From Sulfurimonas xiamenensis (GTDB taxonomy: Bacteria > Campylobacterota > Campylobacteria > Campylobacterales > Sulfurimonadaceae), in assembly GCF_009258045.1 (NCBI RefSeq), contig NZ_CP041166.1:1-64000 (forward strand): a DNA stretch of 64,000 bases, given 5' to 3'. The position numbers were made by a program, and so were the translations under genes. Position 1 is the first letter of the stretch; each line of letters opens with the position of its first letter. This document shows, in pieces, positions 7,002 through 24,146 of this stretch. The notes beneath the pieces are model-generated. The model did not search any database. It was not told the DNA's origin and saw nothing but the letters and a program-made list of their open reading frames with translations.

Positions 7002-8245
7002 TTTTTTTTAGAAAACTTTAAATAGTTTTTTAACCACTTTTTAGCATCTATATAGTTATTAAATTTACCATTCATTTGTGCTTCATAAGCAAGATGTAAA
7101 ATTTCTGAAAAAAGAGGTGATGGTTTAAGACCAAGTTCTAAAATATCTTTTCCCATTAGGATAGGAGGAAGTTTGTTATTTAATATATTTAACTTCTTAG
7201 CTCTTTTATAAATTTCTTCGCCTGCTTTGTATATTTTTGAATTGTTATAAGAAAAATATATTGAGCTGCTTAAAATAAGAAGTTCATTTATATTTACTTC
7301 AGTAGCGAGTTTATAAAGCATATAATTATTTATACCATCTTCGTAAATGGTGTCTATCTTCTTATGTTTATTGATTAATGTAGTAACTCTATTTAATATT
7401 TTTTTTTCATTAGTTAATTTAAATATAAAATTTTCTGCCTTTGTTTGTGTGAAGTTATAACAGAGTCCTGATAACATTAAAATCAAGTTTGTTTGTTTGT
7501 TTGTTGTCATCTGTTTTGCTATTTCATCAATAACAGATAAATTATTTGTATAAATATCACTCCCTAACTCTTTTAAAAGTTTAAAACCAATAGATGGTTT
7601 TTTTGAAAATAAAAGAAGTTTTTTTATCTCTTCAAATATTCTCTCTTTTGGCAGTTCATCAAGCATTTTTTTAGAAACCATTTTTTTACATCTATTGTAT
7701 AAATTTTTATCTATTTGAAGATCAAATCTTGTAGAAAATTGAACTGCTCTTAAAACTCTTAAAGGATCTTCACTAAAGCTATTTAAATCTACAGCTTTTA
7801 ATATTTTGTTTTTTAAATCATTTATTCCATTAAAAGGATCTAATATTTTTTTTTCTATAACATCAAAACCAATTGAGTTAATTGTAAAATCTCTTCTTGA
7901 TGTTGCCGTTTTAAAATCAATATTTGATTCTATTTTTATATCAAATCCACGATGTCCTGGTTTAATTTTATTGTCTTTTCTTGGAAAAGAGAAGTCTAAA
8001 TCATAATCTTGGTAATATAATTTGCAAACTCCAAAACTTTTACCGACAATATTAATATTTCCGAATTCTTTTAATATATTTTCTAATTCATTAAAAGATG
8101 AAATTCCATATATTTCAATATCTATATCTTTTGATTCTATATTTAATAAAAAATCTCTAATATAACCACCTACTATTATAGGTTTAATATTGTAATTATT
8201 TAATTTATTGAAAATAGTATTTAATTTTTCCGGATAATGAATCAT
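6998..8245 (-). CDS. cca: CCA tRNA nucleotidyltransferase / poly(A) polymerase family
   Basis: This enzyme adds or repairs the 3' CCA end of tRNAs, or one part of it if a split pair exists. The class II nucleotidyltransferase head shows IIVGGYIRDFLL with the paired glycines at 26-27, then the DxD metal site D40/D42 in KDIDIEIYG. RRDFTINSIGFDV and the neck motif EDPLRVLRAVQF follow, all hallmarks of the family. I place the start at the ATG at 8245, which follows TTTAGGATT; a GTG 24 bases upstream has no good ribosome site. Length is about 415 residues. Very low G+C and runs of Asn/Lys codons are typical of this region. Confidence 0.9.
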   Translation of the reverse strand: MIHYPEKLNTIFNKLNNYNIKPIIVGGYIRDFLLNIESKDIDIEIYGISSFNELENILKEFGNINIVGKSFGVCKLYYQDYDLDFSFPRKDNKIKPGHRGFDIKIESNIDFKTATSRRDFTINSIGFDVIEKKILDPFNGINDLKNKILKAVDLNSFSEDPLRVLRAVQFSTRFDLQIDKNLYNRCKKMVSKKMLDELPKERIFEEIKKLLLFSKKPSIGFKLLKELGSDIYTNNLSVIDEIAKQMTTNKQTNLILMLSGLCYNFTQTKAENFIFKLTNEKKILNRVTTLINKHKKIDTIYEDGINNYMLYKLATEVNINELLILSSSIYFSYNNSKIYKAGEEIYKRAKKLNILNNKLPPILMGKDILELGLKPSPLFSEILHLAYEAQMNGKFNNYIDAKKWLKNYLKFSKKN

Positions 8246-16863: not shown

Positions 16864-16890
16864 AAAAAAATATAAGCCCGAAGGCTTATA
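16864..16890 (-). terminator. Original rpsU terminator, now separated from its gene
   Basis: TATAAGCC (16871-16878) and GGCTTATA (16883-16890) form a perfect 8-bp stem with a CGAA loop (TTCG on the minus strand). Seven A residues at 16864-16870 give a T-run on the minus strand only. It directly follows the old rpsU stop codon at 16891-16893, so it was the rpsU terminator before the 4-kb insertion. Confidence 0.85.
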
Positions 16891-16921
16891 TTAGAGGCGT
16901 GATTCGTAGCGTCTCATCATA
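16891..16921 (-). pseudogene. Displaced original 3' end of rpsU (attL side)
   Basis: Read on the minus strand this stretch encodes MMRRYESRL and TAA, exactly the last residues of ribosomal protein S21 as encoded 4 kb away at 20948-20978. The 18 bp at 16904-16921 are identical to that copy. The last four codons and stop differ at synonymous positions (GAA TCA CGC CTC TAA here, GAG TCA AGA CTG TAA in the present rpsU). It is the former gene end left behind by integration. Confidence 0.88.
16904..16921. repeat. attL core, 18-bp direct repeat
   Basis: TCGTAGCGTCTCATCATA here is identical to 20961-20978. It codes for MMRRYE of S21 on the minus strand. Three bases further out (TGA at 16900-16902 and 20957-20959) also match, with one mismatch between. 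Confidence 0.88.
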
Positions 16922-16992
16922 GGCTTTTTTCAAGTTTCTTAAAGTAGATAAAAACTTCAATCAAACCCCTTTACATAGGGCTTTTAACATTG

Positions 16993-16998
16993 TATAAT
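16993..16998 (+). promoter_or_regulatory. Probable -10 element of the integrase promoter
   Basis: TATAAT in ATTGTATAATAATAAC lies about 80 bases before the integrase ATG. The GTTAGAAAT repeats lie between it and the gene. Confidence 0.45.
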
Positions 16999-17026
16999 AA
17001 TAACTAAGTAAAATCAAGTAAAGTCT

Positions 17027-17062
17027 ATTTCTAACCTCTTGAGTTAGAAATGAGTTAGAAAT
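17027..17062. repeat. GTTAGAAAT repeats in the integrase leader
   Basis: GTTAGAAAT occurs directly at 17043-17051 and 17054-17062 (11-bp period), and inverted (ATTTCTAAC) at 17027-17035. A further copy is at 20877-20885 near the other element end. They could be arm-type integrase/excisionase sites or operators for integrase expression. Confidence 0.6.
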
Positions 17063-17080
17063 ATAAAGGGATTTTTTGCA

Positions 17081-18193
17081 ATGGTTAAAACAAAAAAAAC
17101 GGGTGTTTATTACAATCTCTTAGAAGATAAGGATAAAGTCTTTTATTTCAACTACAAAGATATAAATGATTTAGATAAAAACTCAAAGCCAAAACTCAAA
17201 TGGGTAAAAATAGGAAATTATTCAGAAGGGATAAGAGAGGCTAACGCCGTTACACTTAGAAATGAACAACTATCCAAGATGAAGCACGGGGAAGATATAA
17301 CCATAATTGCAACTAAGAAAAAAAAAGAGATAGTTACCTTTGATGATTTAGCACAAACATACTTCAAAGATAAAAAAAGCACTCCAAACCGAATGAGTCG
17401 TTACAATACTCATATAAAAGGAGCAATCGGTAACAAAGATATACACAAAATAAGCAAAGAGAGCATAGAGAAGCTTTTAAAAGATGTTGAAGCAAAGGGA
17501 TTATCAAACCAGACTCTAAACAGCATTAAAGAGCTTATAAGCACGATATACAATCATCATATAAAAAAGTATGACTTAGTGATAATCAATCCTTGCATAA
17601 AAATAGAGAGATACAATATTGATAACAATAGAGAGAGATATTTATCTTTATCGGAAATCAAACAGCTCAAAGAAATCATAAAAGATGATTTTTTAGTGAG
17701 TCTCTTTGTAGATTTATCATTACAGACGGGCGGTCGCTTTGAAACAATCTTGCATATACAAAAAAAAGATATTAACTTAGCAAGTGAAACGGTTACGCTC
17801 AAAAATCTAAAAACAAAAAGTACCTACACGGGACACTTGCAAAAAGAGTTTTTAGAGTCAATAAAAGAATACTTGCAAAAACTAAGCATAAATGATTATG
17901 TAGTTAGCTTCAAAGATGCACACGATACAAAACTCACACAAAGACAAATACAGCATAGAATCAAGCCGTTGTTAGATAAATTGTTTAACAAAGGACTTGA
18001 TACAAAAGATGCAAAAAATAGAGCAGTAATTCATACTTTTAGACATACCTTTGCTTCACATCTTGCAATCAATGGAGTGCCTATTTTTACAATCAAAGAG
18101 CTTATGAATCACGCAAAAATAGAACAGACTATAAGATACGCAAAACTAAGTCCAGAAAATGGAAAAAATGCGGTGCAGGGGCTTTATAGATGA
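17081..18193 (+). CDS. int: Tyrosine recombinase / phage-type integrase
   Basis: This 370-residue protein should catalyse integration and, with an accessory factor, excision of the element. Catalytic residues are in place: R219 (TGGRFETIL), H318 and R321 (HTFRHTFASH), H344 (LMNHAK) and the nucleophile Y353 (IRYAKL). An N-terminal DUF4102-like arm-binding region (about 1-75) and a SAM-like core-binding domain (about 85-180) precede the catalytic part. GGGA precedes the ATG by about ten bases. It overlaps the next gene by the 4-bp ATGA. Codon use is richer in CAA/AAA and closer to plasmids than neighbouring host genes, a soft sign of transfer. Confidence 0.93.
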   Translation: MVKTKKTGVYYNLLEDKDKVFYFNYKDINDLDKNSKPKLKWVKIGNYSEGIREANAVTLRNEQLSKMKHGEDITIIATKKKKEIVTFDDLAQTYFKDKKSTPNRMSRYNTHIKGAIGNKDIHKISKESIEKLLKDVEAKGLSNQTLNSIKELISTIYNHHIKKYDLVIINPCIKIERYNIDNNRERYLSLSEIKQLKEIIKDDFLVSLFVDLSLQTGGRFETILHIQKKDINLASETVTLKNLKTKSTYTGHLQKEFLESIKEYLQKLSINDYVVSFKDAHDTKLTQRQIQHRIKPLLDKLFNKGLDTKDAKNRAVIHTFRHTFASHLAINGVPIFTIKELMNHAKIEQTIRYAKLSPENGKNAVQGLYR

Positions 18194-18858
18194 GAGATGA
18201 GTATTCAAAAATTGATTATAATGAAATTGAAAATTTTTTAAATGAGAAAACCAAAACCAAAAACTATGAACTCCAAAATATTAAAAAAGAAGACCTTATA
18301 GGATTTATTTTTGATGAGTTTGCAAAGATATTTGAAAGTTCATACATAGAAAAAACAGCTAAACGATACAAAGAAACCACTAATACGCAACAAAGCATAA
18401 AACAAATTATAGAAGAGTCACAAAAAAGAGCAAATAATACTTATTATATTATTTATCAATCAATTTATAAGTATCAGTATTATATTGAAAATAAAGACGC
18501 TGATGCTACAAAGAAATTTTTAAATGAAGAACGAAAAATCAAAAGTAAAGTAAAAAAATTTATTGAAATATTAGAACCTAGTAATAAAGAAAACACTAAA
18601 CAAAAACAGTTACTATTATTATTAGAAGATATGCAAAAAAATCCTTATAATTACGCTCAAGCTCCAGATGTTATACCAATAGCAAAAGTAGAAGTAATTG
18701 ATATAAAAAATCAGATTATACAAGCTTTATCGAATAGATTAATTTGCAGGGTAGAAGATGACGAGTATAAATCTTTACCAATGAAAGAAAAAATCAAAAG
18801 AAGCCATAAGCACGGCTTTAATGCAGTTGATGCAATCTTCCAAAAACTTCCTTTTTAA
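18190..18858 (+). CDS. Element protein of unknown function
   Basis: I do not recognise this 222-residue protein. It is highly charged, rich in Lys, Glu, Asn and Tyr, and is predicted mainly helical (for example IIEESQKRANNTYYIIYQS and EERKIKSKVKKFIEIL). There is no signal peptide, membrane segment or Cys pair. The end, KRSHKHGFNAVDAIFQKLPF, is the most distinctive part. Its ATG overlaps the integrase stop (ATGA), so the two are co-translated and may act together, for example in recombination control or immunity. That is inference from position only. Confidence 0.7.
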   Translation: MRDEYSKIDYNEIENFLNEKTKTKNYELQNIKKEDLIGFIFDEFAKIFESSYIEKTAKRYKETTNTQQSIKQIIEESQKRANNTYYIIYQSIYKYQYYIENKDADATKKFLNEERKIKSKVKKFIEILEPSNKENTKQKQLLLLLEDMQKNPYNYAQAPDVIPIAKVEVIDIKNQIIQALSNRLICRVEDDEYKSLPMKEKIKRSHKHGFNAVDAIFQKLPF

Positions 18859-19029
18859 AGTGTCAAATTTTTATCTTATTTTTTGAGATATTTTTTCGAC
18901 ACCCAAAAAATCACAAATGCGATAATTCTATCATACAAGTAAGAACTTGCAAGGATAAGCTTTTTAGTTTATATCTTATTTGTTTAGAGGTTGCAATCTC
19001 ATAATTTAATCCACAAAGGAAAAAAGATT

Positions 19030-19284
19030 ATGAGTAATAAATTACTTACAGACGAACAGAGAGAGCTTTATAGCTTGATGTTACCACAGTATGGAGCGGT
19101 ACTAAGCCAGAATGATGCTTCAAAGTGCTTAAAGAAGTCGTTAGCGACACTTTACAGAATGAGAGAGCAGGGAATCGGACCGAGTTATAAAAAGCTTGAT
19201 AGTAAGTCTAAAAACGGCACGGTGGTTTATCCACTCCAAGAGATTGTTAGATACTTGACTGAATCTAATATCCAAACGGCTTGA
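19030..19284 (+). CDS. Small HTH protein, AlpA/excisionase-like
   Basis: The 84-residue product has a winged-helix/HTH_17-type pattern: QNDASKCLKKSLATLYRMRE (recognition helix around LATLYRMREQ), then GPSYKKLDSKSKNGTVVYPLQEIVRYL. This layout (helix-turn-helix, G-P-x-Y-x-K wing, then a YPLxEIxxYL strand-helix) is typical of AlpA-like regulators and excisionases. It may bind the GTTAGAAAT repeats and steer excision or element transcription (inference). AAAGGA lies 10 bases before the ATG at 19030. Confidence 0.75.
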   Translation: MSNKLLTDEQRELYSLMLPQYGAVLSQNDASKCLKKSLATLYRMREQGIGPSYKKLDSKSKNGTVVYPLQEIVRYLTESNIQTA

Positions 19285-19293
19285 GGTGGTATT

Positions 19294-19728
19294 ATGAAAA
19301 TTTCAGAATATACAATCATCAACGGTAAGCCCTCAAAGGTTATCTGTAATGAATCAAAAGCCAAAGAGTGGAATTTAGAAGACGCAAATATCGACACATT
19401 AAAGGTTGTAGATGAACTTCTAAAATTTAAAGATAGTAGTTTGAAATATCCAAAAGGCATAACTGTAATCAATGCAGTTGATACAATCAGTTTGGTATCT
19501 AATTTGAATGTAACCCGTCCAAGTAATCACATCGGTATTATAAGAAGTGATTTACCTGCGGATACGCTCATTACTTATAGAACGCCAAACGAGCGTGATA
19601 CATACGGCATAGTCAAAAGTGACGAGAGCATCAAGTGTGTTGAGGCTTTGAGAGAGAGGCTTTTAAAAGTTGTTGAGAGTAAAGATATAAAACTCTCAAA
19701 AGCTTATGAAGATAATCGGACAAATTGA
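19294..19728 (+). CDS. Element protein of unknown function
   Basis: The 144-residue protein has no family I recognise. It has mixed alpha/beta character, no Cys except one (VICNES), and no signal or membrane helix. Notable parts are NVTRPSNHIGIIRSDLPADT and TPNERDTYGIVKSDES. GAGGTGG supplies a strong ribosome site 5 bases before the ATG. It lies 9 bp after the HTH gene and overlaps the start of the Rep-like gene by 23 bp, so it is probably part of the replication module. Confidence 0.65.
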   Translation: MKISEYTIINGKPSKVICNESKAKEWNLEDANIDTLKVVDELLKFKDSSLKYPKGITVINAVDTISLVSNLNVTRPSNHIGIIRSDLPADTLITYRTPNERDTYGIVKSDESIKCVEALRERLLKVVESKDIKLSKAYEDNRTN

Positions 19729-20389
19729 CTCTATAAGCTTGAGAAGTGAGAATTTTGAACAGATGTTTACAAGTGATAATTATATCATAGTAACAGTTAA
19801 AGGCGTGGGAATATTTGAACCAAAGTTATGGAGAGATGCTTTTAAACAGAGGCTTACCAAGAGCATAATAGAGGCGAAAATACTCCACACCTCAACAGGC
19901 TTGACTATTGCACTCAAGAGATACAATAGAAGCCTTACAAAGCAAACTTTAGATATTGCAGGGCTTAGAGGCTATGATGATAAAGCAATGGATTTAAACA
20001 ACTTCTTACAGTCTCACTTCTTAGAGTTTATGGAGTGTGAAATCAAGCGGATAGATATTTGTTTTGATTTTTTGAAAGTACCGAATCGAGTTATAAAAAG
20101 GTTATGCGACAAAAGAGAGCCTTTTAAATTCTGTAACACTACTTACTACAAAACGCCAAAAGAGTTAAAAACAAATGATACGCTTGATATAAAGCGATAC
20201 GACAAACAAAAAGAGGCGAAACTACCCAGACCGATGGAACGGTTAGAATTTTGTTTCAAAGGTGGCTATTTTCCAAAAGGAATGAAGCTTAATAATTTAG
20301 ATAGAAATTTTCTATCCAAGATGGAAAAAACTATAAAGCGATTTAGTGGAATAGATGCGAAAATATTCCCTTTAAGTTACATTGTTTAA
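19706..20389 (+). CDS. Putative replication initiation protein (Rep/phage gpII-like)
   Basis: The 227-residue protein shows features shared by Rep_trans and filamentous-phage gpII/X initiators. RIDICFDF at about 113-120 resembles the catalytic-core strand RxDxxxD. IKRYDKQKEA followed by PMERLEFCFKG resembles their YDK...RxE segment. HTSTGLTIALKRYN precedes. These enzymes nick DNA at an origin for rolling-circle replication. I see no clear family-level match, so the call is tentative. It begins inside the preceding gene with no clear ribosome site of its own. A hairpin and iteron-like repeats follow it. Confidence 0.5.
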   Translation: MKIIGQIDSISLRSENFEQMFTSDNYIIVTVKGVGIFEPKLWRDAFKQRLTKSIIEAKILHTSTGLTIALKRYNRSLTKQTLDIAGLRGYDDKAMDLNNFLQSHFLEFMECEIKRIDICFDFLKVPNRVIKRLCDKREPFKFCNTTYYKTPKELKTNDTLDIKRYDKQKEAKLPRPMERLEFCFKGGYFPKGMKLNNLDRNFLSKMEKTIKRFSGIDAKIFPLSYIV

Positions 20390-20401
20390 ATTTTCCAAAA
20401 C

Positions 20402-20431
20402 AGCCCGTCCAAACTCCACACGGTACGGGCT
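20402..20431. repeat. Inverted repeat just after the Rep-like gene
   Basis: AGCCCGT and ACGGGCT pair around a 16-base loop, starting 12 bases past the Rep-like stop codon. No T-run follows. It may be a terminator-like hairpin or a nick-site hairpin. Confidence 0.45.
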
Positions 20432-20677
20432 TAAACACACTTCTTAAACTTTGCTGAAAGTGAAACTAATTTCAAGCATAAAAAGAGAGCAGTTAATAAC
20501 ACTAATCAGAGCTACCAAGATACGAACATCACACAAAAAAACTCATAGGTACTGTAAGAGCAAATAACAGGCACGGTAGGTGCAAGCCTCAAAAACTCTC
20601 TAATTATCTTGTTTTAAAAGTAAGTTAAGTATTTTATAAATGTTATAATTTTTGCTTATACAACGGTATTTCAAGCC

Positions 20678-20725
20678 ATTAACCAATTAACCTAAAGTAT
20701 ATTAACTAATCAAATATAATTAACC
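20678..20725 (+). repeat. Iteron-like ATTAACC repeats
   Basis: Three ATTAACC and one ATTAACT lie in the same orientation within 48 bases (starts at 20678, 20686, 20701 and 20719), embedded in almost pure A/T sequence. Confidence 0.5.
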
Positions 20726-20947
20726 AAAGGCTTATATCTGTTTTATAAGACACGAACTGTTTTTAAGTGATAGATTGTAGGGTAAAATGATTTTATACGG
20801 TGCTGATGAGGTAGTACTTTTTTATCGGATATAGTAAGGTTAAAAAGTAGAAAATTTGATTAGTGGTTATAAATAGGTTAGAAATGGACTTTAAAAGCAA
20901 TCCTTAAAGACGCCTCTAAAGCCCTATTCTATGAAGTTTAGTGTATG

Positions 20948-21160
20948 TTACAGTCTTGACTCGTAGCGTCTCATCATATAAAGACGCTTAAGCATTTTCT
21001 TACGAGAAGCAATTTTGAATTTTTTACGCTTTTCAGTTTCTGTTTCATGGAAACGGCGAGCACGAGCTTCTGTAACGATTAAGTTACGGTCAGTCTGCTT
21101 TTTGAAACGACGGTAAGCTGCATCAAAATTATCATCACTGCGTAGTACGATACCAGGCAT
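20948..21160 (-). CDS. rpsU: 30S ribosomal protein S21 (3' end supplied by the element)
   Basis: S21 is a small basic 30S protein involved in mRNA engagement. The 70-residue product opens [20 protein letters not shown] and ends MMRRYESRL, the Campylobacterota S21 form. On the minus strand a GGGTGATGTGAT ribosome region precedes the ATG. The element integrated in its last codons, yet the amino-acid sequence matches the displaced original end exactly, so the product is unchanged. Its own terminator is now 4 kb away, so transcripts may run antisense into the element. It is divergent from dnaG. Confidence 0.96.
20961..20978. repeat. attR core, 18-bp direct repeat
   Basis: Identical to 16904-16921 and inside the current rpsU gene. 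Codons to its left (20948-20960) come from the element and restore the S21 C-terminus. Confidence 0.88.
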
Positions 21161-21377: not shown

Positions 21378-24146
21378 ATGATTGATAAAGATTCTATAGA
21401 AGCCCTAAAGGCACGCCTTGATATTGTTGATGTTGTAGGTTCGTATATAGAGCTTAGAAAAGCCGGTGCCAACTATAAAGCTCCATGCCCTTTTCATGAT
21501 GAAAAAACGGCTTCATTTGTAGTAAGTCCCGCTAAACAGATATATCACTGTTTTGGTTGCCTTCCTCCATACCAAAAAATAATGACCACACTTGGATACA
21601 AAGAGATAAAGGATGTAATGGTAGGTGATAAAGTTTTTGCTGCAAATGGAGTTTTAACAGAAGTGATTGAGCGAGTGTATCATACAAGTGAGTTTGATAT
21701 TCTAGCTTTTAAAACATCTCTTAGTGCAAAAGAGTCTTGTTTTACGCAAAACCATGATATGTTGGTTATTAAAAAAGAGGATGCAGTTAGCGAACTGCCA
21801 TACTTAAGAGTAGAGAAAAGTAGACCTCTAAAGTTTTATGGACGAATAAAAAAAACGAAAAGAAATTATAGTTTCACGATTAAAAGAGAGTTTGCTAATG
21901 ATGTAAGAGTAGGTGATTACTTTTTATATCCAAAGAATCGTCAAACAGTTACAAAAGAGTATTTAGATGTTTCATCTTTTTGGGAGAAGAATAATTTTGG
22001 ACCAAATGTTCAAAGGATAGAAAAAATAACACTAGATAGAGACTTTATGTGGCTTGCAGGTTTATATGTAGCTGAAGGTAGTACATATAGAGGTGGTATA
22101 AAATTTTCTATTTCATCTACTGAAGAAAAGTATGCTAAAGAGATAATAAGAATAGTAAAAAAATTATTCAACAAAGAAGCAAAACTTTTCTATACAAAAA
22201 ATAGAAAAAACTCCCTCGAAGTTACCATATCTAGTACAAATTTAGAATATATTTTTCTAGAGTTATTTGGTAAAGGTGCCAAAAATAAGCACTATCCATT
22301 TTGGTTTAATTCTTTATCTGATGAACTTAAAGAGTCTTTGTTTATGGGATTAATGGATGGAGATGGATGTTATGCTAGAAATACTTATGACACTATAAGC
22401 CAAACTCTTGCAGATGAAATAATTGACTTAGCAATATCTCTTGGTAAGATACCATCTTGTAGGGTCTCAAAATCATTCGTTGATAAAAAAGGTGTTAATC
22501 ATAAACAATCCTATAAGATATATTTTAAAAAAAGAGAGTCAACAGAGAGTTTTTTTGAGTATATTGATGGAGTAGAATATCTGTTTATAAAAGTTAAAGA
22601 GATAAAAAATATTGGAAAAGAAGATTTAGTATATGATATAACAGTTAAAGATAAAACACATACTTTTCTATCGAACCATTTCGGAGTTGGCAATTGTGGT
22701 GCCGGCGGTGACAGTATAAAATTTATTATGGAGTATGAAAAACTCTCTTATCCCGAAGCATTAGAAAAACTTGCTTCTTCATATAATTTTTCTCTTACTT
22801 ACAGTGACAGCAAAAATAATAAACCTCGCTCACAGCTTATGGACAAAATTAATGAGTGGTATCAATATTTGTTTACTAAAAATCCTCAAGCACGCTCTTA
22901 TATAAAAGAGCGAGGCATTTATGAGAGCAGCATTGAAAAATTTGGTATTGGATATGCACCGGACTCCAACTCAACGATAAACTATATAAAATCTCAACTT
23001 TTCAATATGAGCGAAGCTGTAGAGATGGGTGTTGTAGGTTATGACGGCGGAAGAAATTTTGCAAGATTTATAGAGCGCATAACATTTCCGATTCATTCTG
23101 CAAACGGAACTATTGTCGGTTTTGGCGGCAGAACCATAACCGGGCATCAGGCAAAGTATATAAATTCTCCAGAAACACCGATTTTTAATAAATCCCGTCT
23201 TCTTTATGCTTATCACCATGCAAAACAAACAGTTTACAAAACAAAACAGATAATTATAACAGAAGGATATCTTGATGTTATTATGCTTCATCAAGCCGGT
23301 TTTACAAATGCAGTTGCTACTTTGGGAACAGCGCTGACTCCTGAGCATCTGCCGTTTTTGAGAAAGGGAGAGCCGGAAGTTATTATGGCATATGATGGAG
23401 ATAAAGCAGGACGAGCAGCTGCACTCAAAGCATCAAAACTTTTAAGTGCCAGCGGATTTAACGGCGGCGTTGTTATTTTTAAAGAAGGCTTAGATCCTGC
23501 AGATATGGTAAAAAATGGTGCAGTTGAAGAGTTGGCAGATATGTTTAGAACACCCCAGCCATTTATCGAATTTGTCTTAAATGAGATTTTATCACTCTAT
23601 AATCTTTTTGATCCAAAAGCCAAAGAAGCTTGTATGCAAGAAGCGGTAGGATATCTTAAAACCCTCTCTCCTATACTTCAAGACAAATACAAAACATACT
23701 TAGCACAACGATTAGGAATCAACCCTTCATTTGTTAAATTGACAAATCAAACAAACACTAACAGATCTGTTAGTGATAACAGTCGTCATAGAGATATGTG
23801 GGAGCTTAGTCTTATAAAAACAGTTTTAGAGTATCCGGAATTTATAGATCAGATACTTGATGTTTTAAATCCTTCACTTTTACAGTTTCACTCATCTGAG
23901 TTTGCTTTGGCACTTCAGGGAAAAGTAGATGAGCCTGCTCTTATGGCAATATTGATAGATGAAAAGATACTTCCATTTAAAAATGAAGAGGTACTAAAAT
24001 CAGAACTTATAGCATTTTTAACAAAACATTATGAACGGGAATATAAAAAGATAAATCTGAAAACAGATATCTCTTTTGAAGAAAAAGCTTTTTATATCCG
24101 TAAACTTAGAGGAAAAATTTCACAATTAAAGCGCGGAGAACTTTAA
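21378..24146 (+). CDS. dnaG: DNA primase DnaG, interrupted by an in-frame intein
   Basis: DnaG makes RNA primers at the replication fork. The precursor has 922 residues; removing residues 61-439 leaves 543, a usual primase length. The zinc domain carries C37, H40 and C58, with the fourth ligand provided by the residue after the intein (C440, giving CFGCGAGGDS on splicing). The catalytic TOPRIM part shows YAPDSN, VGFGGRTI, ITEGYLDVIMLHQAG and YDGDKAGRAAALKA. A helicase-interaction tail follows. The start lies six bases after a TATAAT with no ribosome site. Its stop overlaps the convergent gene by 4 bp. Without splicing the zinc finger cannot form normally. Confidence 0.96.
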   Translation: MIDKDSIEALKARLDIVDVVGSYIELRKAGANYKAPCPFHDEKTASFVVSPAKQIYHCFGCLPPYQKIMTTLGYKEIKDVMVGDKVFAANGVLTEVIERVYHTSEFDILAFKTSLSAKESCFTQNHDMLVIKKEDAVSELPYLRVEKSRPLKFYGRIKKTKRNYSFTIKREFANDVRVGDYFLYPKNRQTVTKEYLDVSSFWEKNNFGPNVQRIEKITLDRDFMWLAGLYVAEGSTYRGGIKFSISSTEEKYAKEIIRIVKKLFNKEAKLFYTKNRKNSLEVTISSTNLEYIFLELFGKGAKNKHYPFWFNSLSDELKESLFMGLMDGDGCYARNTYDTISQTLADEIIDLAISLGKIPSCRVSKSFVDKKGVNHKQSYKIYFKKRESTESFFEYIDGVEYLFIKVKEIKNIGKEDLVYDITVKDKTHTFLSNHFGVGNCGAGGDSIKFIMEYEKLSYPEALEKLASSYNFSLTYSDSKNNKPRSQLMDKINEWYQYLFTKNPQARSYIKERGIYESSIEKFGIGYAPDSNSTINYIKSQLFNMSEAVEMGVVGYDGGRNFARFIERITFPIHSANGTIVGFGGRTITGHQAKYINSPETPIFNKSRLLYAYHHAKQTVYKTKQIIITEGYLDVIMLHQAGFTNAVATLGTALTPEHLPFLRKGEPEVIMAYDGDKAGRAAALKASKLLSASGFNGGVVIFKEGLDPADMVKNGAVEELADMFRTPQPFIEFVLNEILSLYNLFDPKAKEACMQEAVGYLKTLSPILQDKYKTYLAQRLGINPSFVKLTNQTNTNRSVSDNSRHRDMWELSLIKTVLEYPEFIDQILDVLNPSLLQFHSSEFALALQGKVDEPALMAILIDEKILPFKNEEVLKSELIAFLTKHYEREYKKINLKTDISFEEKAFYIRKLRGKISQLKRGEL
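21558..22694 (+). mobile_element. Intein with LAGLIDADG homing endonuclease in DnaG
   Basis: The 379-residue insert begins at C61 (CLPPYQKIMTTLGYKEIKDV, block A) and ends at N439, followed by Cys+1. Block B has FTQNHDML with the Thr and His. Two endonuclease motifs are present, WLAGLYVAEG and FMGLMDGDG, each with an acidic catalytic residue. Block F is LVYDITVKDKTHTFLSNHFG. The penultimate residue is Gly, not the usual His, which is tolerated in some inteins. Everything is in frame, so splicing and homing both look possible. It lies exactly at the fourth zinc ligand, a strongly conserved site. Confidence 0.93.

Follow-up and report, generated by a model that had tools for sequence, protein, structure and literature searches.

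Here, we describe a mobile element inserted in the 3' end of rpsU, the gene for ribosomal protein S21, in Sulfurimonas xiamenensis. The window, i.e. the whole stretch of DNA analysed, comprises the first 64,000 nucleotides (64 kb) of contig NZ_CP041166.1, and the element occupies 4,057 bp of it, counted between the two copies of an 18-bp repeat. All five open reading frames (ORFs) of the element lie on the plus strand. They encode an integrase (INT), ORF2, a helix-turn-helix protein (HTH), ORF4 and a replication protein (REP), and we argue below that together they probably form a small phage satellite. The features of the locus are as follows.

16869-16892, minus strand: the native terminator of rpsU, moved to the left end (a terminator scan finds a stem of 10 pairs with a T run; the identical sequence directly follows rpsU in many relatives).
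16891-16905, minus strand: displaced native rpsU end, GAATCACGCCTCTAA, recognized from its native form in relatives.
16904-16921: attL core, 18 bp, an exact repeat.
16970-16998, plus strand: putative int-ORF2 promoter, TTTACA-17-TATAAT (11 of 12 consensus positions; similar by eye in all seven left arms compared).
17043-17062, plus strand: left arm-type repeat, a putative INT arm site (85% identical to the direct repeat at 20866-20885; repeats like it are visible by eye in relatives).
17081-18193, plus strand: INT, rpsU-type tyrosine integrase, 370 aa (PF00589, E=9e-23).
18190-18858, plus strand: ORF2, 222 aa, the exchangeable integrase-coupled gene, at the position called iolg in known satellites; it overlaps the INT stop by ATGA (4 nt).
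19030-19284, plus strand: HTH, AlpA/excisionase-like, 84 aa (PF12728, HTH_17, E=8e-7; PHROG 66 excisionase/regulator, E=0.001).
19294-19728, plus strand: ORF4, 144 aa, the small gene before REP, identified by position.
19706-20389, plus strand: REP, 227 aa, predicted pT181-type rolling-circle initiator fold (structure model compared by VIA-align and Foldseek).
20402-20462, plus strand: hairpins directly after REP, candidate origin or terminator (similar sequence in four close relatives).
20534-20809: noncoding block of 276 bp in common with a second satellite of the genome, E2 (80% identity), a candidate packaging or other cis site.
20678-20724, plus strand: four ATTAAC iterons within this block, the sole cluster in the window of at least four within 60 bp; their spacing is nearly equal in E2.
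20866-20885, plus strand: right arm-type repeat, a direct repeat with the left one that recurs in relatives.
20948-20962, minus strand: element-borne synonymous rpsU end, GAGTCAAGACTGTAA (the same kind of end in five of 60 genomes and in genome G217).
20961-20978: attR core, 18 bp, an exact repeat inside rpsU.
20948-21160, minus strand: rpsU, the host target gene (PF01165, E=4e-14).

An earlier note on this DNA, made by reading the sequence, had described an 18-bp direct repeat in the coding end of rpsU that bounds a 4.06-kb block of integrase, unknown, excisionase-like, unknown and Rep-like genes, and this description has held up. The repeat is exact, has no further copy in the window when up to two mismatches are allowed, and extends, flanks included, to a 35-nt repeat of 86% identity. 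Its right copy lies inside the rpsU coding sequence, and its left copy adjoins the displaced native rpsU end and terminator. The rpsU end at the right differs from the native one by four base changes, all synonymous, and S21 still ends in ESRL because the element brings this end with it. Since the promoter scan operates near chance level (23 found, against 18.0 with a standard deviation of 3.7 in shuffles; weak taken alone), the case for the int promoter lies in its conservation by eye. In the open-licence literature that we searched, rpsU is not described as an integration or satellite site, and no satellites are described in Sulfurimonas.

Relatives show this site both empty and occupied. 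The rpsU gene was found in 185 of 200 genomes of the family, and its downstream side was compared in 60 chosen genomes, most of them highly complete and of the same genus, with known carriers added. Uninterrupted junctions, in which the native rpsU end and terminator are followed by dgt within 300 bp, are present in 30 of the 60; the one in G146 closely resembles, by eye, the junction that excision would restore in the window. Another 19 genomes have the native end with dgt 300-5,000 bp off, and six have the native end with no dgt in sight, some of these at contig ends, including the carriers G144 and G189. No INT match at E<=1e-5 was found in the 60 rpsU-downstream stretches. The remaining five genomes (G091, G105, G119, G159 and G165) have the element-type end. 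G105 is a carrier with the other half of its element on another contig, and the end in G119 is cut by the end of its contig. In G091 (L127), dgt follows rpsU after 212 bp with an element-type right end and the rest of the element gone; judged by its sequence, this junction is a relic of an element right end. Between rpsU and dgt, G159 (L162) has a 414-aa gene whose product we take to be ATPase-like, and G165 (L165) has a pair of 135-aa and 94-aa genes, presumably a PIN toxin and its partner.

The rpsU-type INT occurs in eight genomes: that of the window, six more of the 200 family genomes (72-91% identical) and G217 (76%). The seven carriers within the family span three genera. The repeat is kept at both ends, with one to three mismatches to the window core, in the three relatives readable at both ends (L059, L064 and G058, the last represented by L061 and L251), and arm-type repeats at both ends also recur among the relatives. 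Both element ends lie on one contig in G156 and G076 and on two contigs in G058. In G105 and G217, INT lies near dgt on one contig and the element-type right end at rpsU on another; in G144 and G189, the left end alone is assembled, with an altered core in G189. The right ends are of two kinds, synonymous without the native terminator (window, G105, G217) and native-like with the terminator (G156, G076, G058). Since INT of G144 is closer in DNA to that of G076, from a different genus (89%), than to that of the window, from the same genus (81%), the INT similarities point to transfer. The REP gene of G058 (L061, 11300-13800) is split by an insertion that by eye is IS21-like, with transposase and ATPase, and the remainder of that element is on another contig.

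The ratio of nonsynonymous to synonymous substitution rates (dN/dS) is 0.07-0.13 for INT (five comparisons), 0.13-0.25 for ORF4 (three comparisons) and 0.07-0.29 over INT, HTH, ORF4 and REP together; by this sequence measure, the four genes are under purifying selection. HTH is 80-90% identical across seven rpsU elements, i.e. the window element and six others, and its conservation tracks that of INT. ORF4 has no match in Pfam, NCBIfam or PHROG.

REP has no match in Pfam or NCBIfam and one in PHROG at E=0.056. An AlphaFold2 (AF2) model from 16 homologues reached a predicted local distance difference test (pLDDT) score of 79.6 and a predicted TM score (pTM) of 0.79, with weaker confidence at residues 32-54. 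Foldseek placed a staphylococcal rolling-circle initiator first (E=1e-5) and the TATA-box-binding protein (TBP) second (E=6.5e-4). In VIA-align, over 999 aligned chains, three rolling-circle replication initiators came out on top (Z 9.0, 8.7 and 8.4), with TBP next at 4.8; we attribute the TBP matches to a shared strand arrangement. Among viral models, the matches at E<=1e-3 include two named Inoviridae proteins, beside unnamed and TBP-like proteins. A sequence search of solved structures with the REP profile gave two matches at E of about 0.9, both biosensor constructs, which were rejected. The predicted fold is common to pT181-type initiators (RepDE, 4cwe/4cwc, and the RepSTK1-like 4cij), although REP is 9-12% identical to these chains and about 40 residues shorter. 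The motifs TTYYK, YxK and RxE are conserved in REP alignments A1/A3 and, as we assume, resemble the pT181-type Rep motif. On the strength of the model, we take REP as a pT181-type initiator, in line with the Rep-like assignment of the earlier note. The hairpins after REP may be an origin or a terminator; their covariation is weak (0 of 17 pairs, two of eight pairs in a second group and 0 of three pairs in the joint set). Matches to REP occur in 19 of the 200 family genomes (E<=0.01) and in 18 of 397 class genomes (E<=1e-5).

The earlier note had singled out the unknown proteins as the likeliest seat of an undescribed function, and ORF2 has indeed become the most interesting part of the element. 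It matches no Pfam, NCBIfam, PHROG or PADLOC family above cut-off, and no phage record. A search of 228 genomes returned its own gene and four matches at E 0.003-0.005; this is no proof of absence, because the same search missed the related ORF2 of E2. A single-sequence fold model was unusable (pLDDT 38.6).

What distinguishes ORF2 is its turnover in a fixed place. When the window element is aligned to its rpsU relatives, DNA identity stops at 18193-18198 in all six comparisons, the INT stop being at 18193. In the five comparisons that extend as far as HTH, it resumes at 18931-19038, ahead of that gene or within it. For a wider table, we defined the ORF2-position gene by position, with start codons given by the longest ORF, and left out L068, L071, L073, L178, L180 and L216, in which INT or ORF2 is cut, absent or unclear. 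The slot is occupied in 29 of 29 readable elements (E2 counted), and the gene there starts -35 to +29 nt from the INT stop, 13 times at exactly -4. Among the 406 element pairs, 25 have INT at least 65% identical, and not one of these 25 has similar ORF2 (E<=1e-3); the 25 are not independent, because 21 fall among the seven rpsU elements. Conversely, ORF2 is similar in four pairs, strongly in window-E2 and L070-L169 and weakly in L060-L076 and L061-L176, none of which has similar INT (best identity 26%). The DNA match between L070 and L169 begins at ORF2 and skips HTH.

This behaviour has a counterpart in the phage-inducible chromosomal minimalist islands (PICMIs). Among these genes, int, iolg and alpA are required for excision of PICMI115, alpA supplied in trans is enough to start it, and the iolg/icg genes fall into 13 unrelated families (PMC10803314). 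In our analysis, the fixed position and high turnover of ORF2 match those of PICMI iolg.

The order INT, ORF2-position gene, short HTH, small gene and REP recurs across Campylobacterota with different integrases and tight spacing, and in many related elements the small gene overlaps REP by 20-26 nt. The genes after REP vary between loci. A scan of chosen downstream proteins placed TerS beside REP in no fewer than 11 loci (L066, L069, L070, L073, L074, L077, L169, L178, L180, L185 and L213), four of which also have TerL (L073, L077, L169 and L178). L169, a 9.3-kb IMG/VR contig, and L178, on a Sulfurimonas contig, carry capsid, portal and terminase genes, with no tail genes in the stretch examined. 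The most telling locus is that of G217, which is integrated at rpsU: HTH, small gene and REP are followed by a 148-aa gene, TerS (PHROG 51, E=5e-12), the right end and rpsU with the exact core. TerS is the last gene before this right end, which is 89% identical to that of the window over 132 bp. Some loci hold further genes in this region. L071 has a Gp157 gene (PF05565) after REP; in L071 and L176, Gp157 is followed by genes that by eye resemble a single-strand annealing protein and a VRR-NUC nuclease. A KilA-N/Bro-N-like gene, also by eye, lies between HTH and REP in L066 (7262-8041) and L067 (8850-9629), like the dynamic zone of Gram-negative phage-inducible chromosomal islands (PICIs).

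E2 (G000:C1, L241) lies in the same genome at about 1,497,866-1,502,640, between 14-bp repeats matching the ssrA end. Its gene order is INT, a gene at -4, HTH, two small genes and a second REP; a further integrase gene adjoins it at 1496305-1497597. When E2 and window proteins are compared by BLASTP at E<=0.1, the ORF2-position proteins alone resemble each other (E=1e-9, with 65.5 bits where 100 shuffles gave no more than 27.3). The two elements differ in INT, HTH and, by BLAST, REP, the two REPs being related by profile only (13 bits).

In the right arm, the earlier note saw no genes, and there is indeed no open stretch of more than 40 codons; the arm is not featureless, however, as it holds an arm-type repeat, the hairpins after REP and the 276-bp block, which matches E2 at genome positions 1501983-1502267. 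The DNA of the block is more alike between the two satellites than are the surrounding proteins, which suggests selection on a cis site. A packaging site is our preferred guess, with an origin, a regulatory site or recombination between the two residents as alternatives. For comparison, a 258-bp sequence common to a PICI and its helper has been interpreted as cos (PMC10111431). Across 149 related genomes, the block turned up twice in its own genome, and G213 has a 56-bp match with no satellite gene around it. An exact 25-mer and 19-mer from it had no matches in viral contigs, a weak test since it finds exact copies only, and a 33-bp match in a Campylobacter phage (E=0.08) was taken as chance. 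A structured RNA in the right arm was not supported: there was no Rfam match up to E=1, folding z-scores were 0.30, 0.48 and -0.24, and a two-sequence consensus had one and three compensatory pairs. A TerS remnant was sought there with 11 query proteins and rejected (best E=0.14).

Most of what is known about phage satellites comes from gamma-proteobacteria and Firmicutes. PICMIs of Vibrionaceae consist of int, iolg overlapping int by ATGA, alpA, up1 and prim without terS, are induced by a virulent helper, and are replicated and packaged as a concatemer; a gene overlaps int, usually by ATGA, in 21 of 35 subfamilies, and complete PICMIs are there reported in Vibrio only (PMC10803314). The window element is likewise small and runs from int through an ATGA-overlapping variable gene, an alpA-type gene and a small gene to a replication gene, with no terS or capsid gene. 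Its integrase is a tyrosine integrase (PF00589), its alpA-type regulator or excisionase is represented by HTH with its PF12728 and PHROG 66 matches, and ORF2 overlaps int by 4 nt as iolg does, a likeness of position. The tandem concatemer, suited to headful packaging, is a PICMI feature that we propose for the rpsU element. PICMIs have a primase, sit at fis and are reported, as complete islands, from Vibrio, whereas the window element has a pT181-type REP without a sequence match to any library family, sits in rpsU and lives in Campylobacterota. We do not file it as a PICMI, because it has neither the primase nor the fis site.

Other satellites resemble it in part. Gram-negative PICIs are described as having an integration zone (int, AlpA), variable and replication zones and late genes, with the origin downstream of the replication gene (PMC10111431). 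The window element shares their run of int, alpA and replication gene in one direction, and many of its relatives share TerS; it differs in having REP in place of a primase and in lacking a late zone, any terS or other gene that redirects packaging, and any remnant of one. Capsid-forming PICIs (cfPICIs) are satellites with their own capsid and terminase genes. L169 and L178 are similar: in them, the core found in the window element is followed by capsid, portal and terminase genes, none of which the window element has.

We therefore consider it probable that the rpsU element is a minimal PICMI-like phage satellite. The earlier note had called it close to a self-replicating integrative unit; we prefer a satellite because TerS, TerL or a capsid block occurs in relatives of conserved gene order, including one that sits at rpsU and shares the right end. 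The element most likely spreads in virus particles, and a cycle may be pictured as follows. INT recombines the 18-bp core in the end of rpsU, and the synonymous end keeps S21 intact, as the sequence bears out. The left-end promoter would probably drive constitutive expression of INT and ORF2. Excision by INT, HTH and ORF2 would be triggered by a helper phage, either directly or through a rise in the HTH (AlpA-like) protein. REP would then nick an origin near its own gene, and rolling-circle replication of the circle would yield a concatemer that the helper packages via a signal in the right arm. The particle would carry the element to a new cell, where it re-enters rpsU. We infer all steps after integration from PICMI115 and from the relatives that encode terminase or capsid genes.

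Several observations weigh against this interpretation. Neither an excised circle nor induction, particles or a helper were observed. The window element lacks TerS, TerL and capsid genes and keeps no remnant of TerS, and the downstream proteins of L059, L062, L067, L071 and L186 have no terminase match, that of L064 being weak only. Searches of 50,697 phage and 72,556 plasmid records found no match to REP or HTH; in viral contigs, REP was found at one locus and INT at none, and a search of the genome itself with one large-terminase family gave a 38-residue match only. The fold match of REP is moderate (Foldseek TM 0.38/0.33), and its protein family is compatible with plasmids or mobilisable elements too. 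One rival, an integrative mobilisable element or rolling-circle plasmid, with REP as initiator or relaxase and a conjugative element to move it, would suit both the missing packaging gene and the predicted fold, which is that of pT181-type initiators and compatible with a relaxase; relaxases of the pT181-type Rep superfamily occur in Gram-positive mobile elements. We nevertheless think it unlikely, given that terminase or capsid genes adjoin REP in at least 11 loci, that an AlpA/excisionase-like HTH accompanies ORF2 at the iolg position as in PICMI, and that reading the ORF lists of related loci turned up no coupling-protein or transfer gene (no profile search was made). A shade less likely still is a decayed satellite that has lost TerS and redirected packaging and is inherited as a resident only. 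Relics do exist in the family, such as the element-type right end next to dgt in G091, and G217 has TerS where the window has noncoding DNA only. Against decay, the five genes are intact, four of them with dN/dS of 0.07-0.29, no TerS remnant is found and the 276-bp block remains 80% identical to that of E2. Moreover, a satellite without TerS can be mobile, as PICMI115 is (PMC10803314).

ORF2 itself could be ordinary exchangeable cargo, e.g. for phage defence, riding behind INT, a view that we hold doubtful though worth keeping in mind. A single hypervariable gene in a fixed slot is a typical picture of defence cargo, and ORF2 matches no family; yet nine ORF2-type proteins searched against PADLOC gave nothing beyond one match at E=0.023, and all 29 readable elements have the slot filled, which sets ORF2 apart from optional cargo. 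Excision of the PICMI, moreover, depends on its gene at this position (PMC10803314).

Within the satellite interpretation, we infer, more speculatively, that ORF2 and the 276-bp block form a helper-matching module exchanged independently of integrase, excisionase and Rep. The block would be the packaging site, or another cis site, that the helper machinery reads, and ORF2 would sense or recruit the helper; satellites of one host might, on the same tentative footing, be drawn to a common module through reliance on a single phage. Counting against this, co-resident satellites share ORF2 and the right arm in one of the three genomes compared, and the other two pairs lack the pattern. In G058, the co-residents have REP DNA, the stretch after REP and parts of the small genes in common, with ORF2 unrelated; in G189, they have REP DNA alone in common, one ORF2 being outside the sequence compared. 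A general rule that co-resident satellites share both parts therefore fails.

Phages may also carry the excision switch of the satellite. The viral contig L223 (IMG/VR; 13.7 of 17.5 kb examined) has primase, RecE, methylase, TerL and portal genes together with a copy of the rpsU-type HTH (7995-8234; 79% identical), which sits at a divergent switch between gene blocks. DNA similarity is limited to that gene and its start. Such a phage copy could trigger satellite excision on infection, and as a single case it is only a lead. A Sulfurimonas prophage, SNW-1, would be a natural helper candidate.

The related loci point to a broad Campylobacterota satellite family with a rolling-circle Rep and a protein-gene target, whose members range from a five-gene minimum to capsid-bearing forms. 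In it, ORF2 changes freely while the integrase, excisionase and attachment site stay constant, and two satellites of one genome agree in this gene, which makes satellite-helper matching directly testable. One gene exchanged between otherwise similar relatives hints at how satellites are matched to their virus.

Outside the element, dnaG (window 21378-24146) appears to bear an intein: the TIGR01443 model of the intein C-terminal region matches residues 418-440, and DnaG itself is recognized in two separate stretches.

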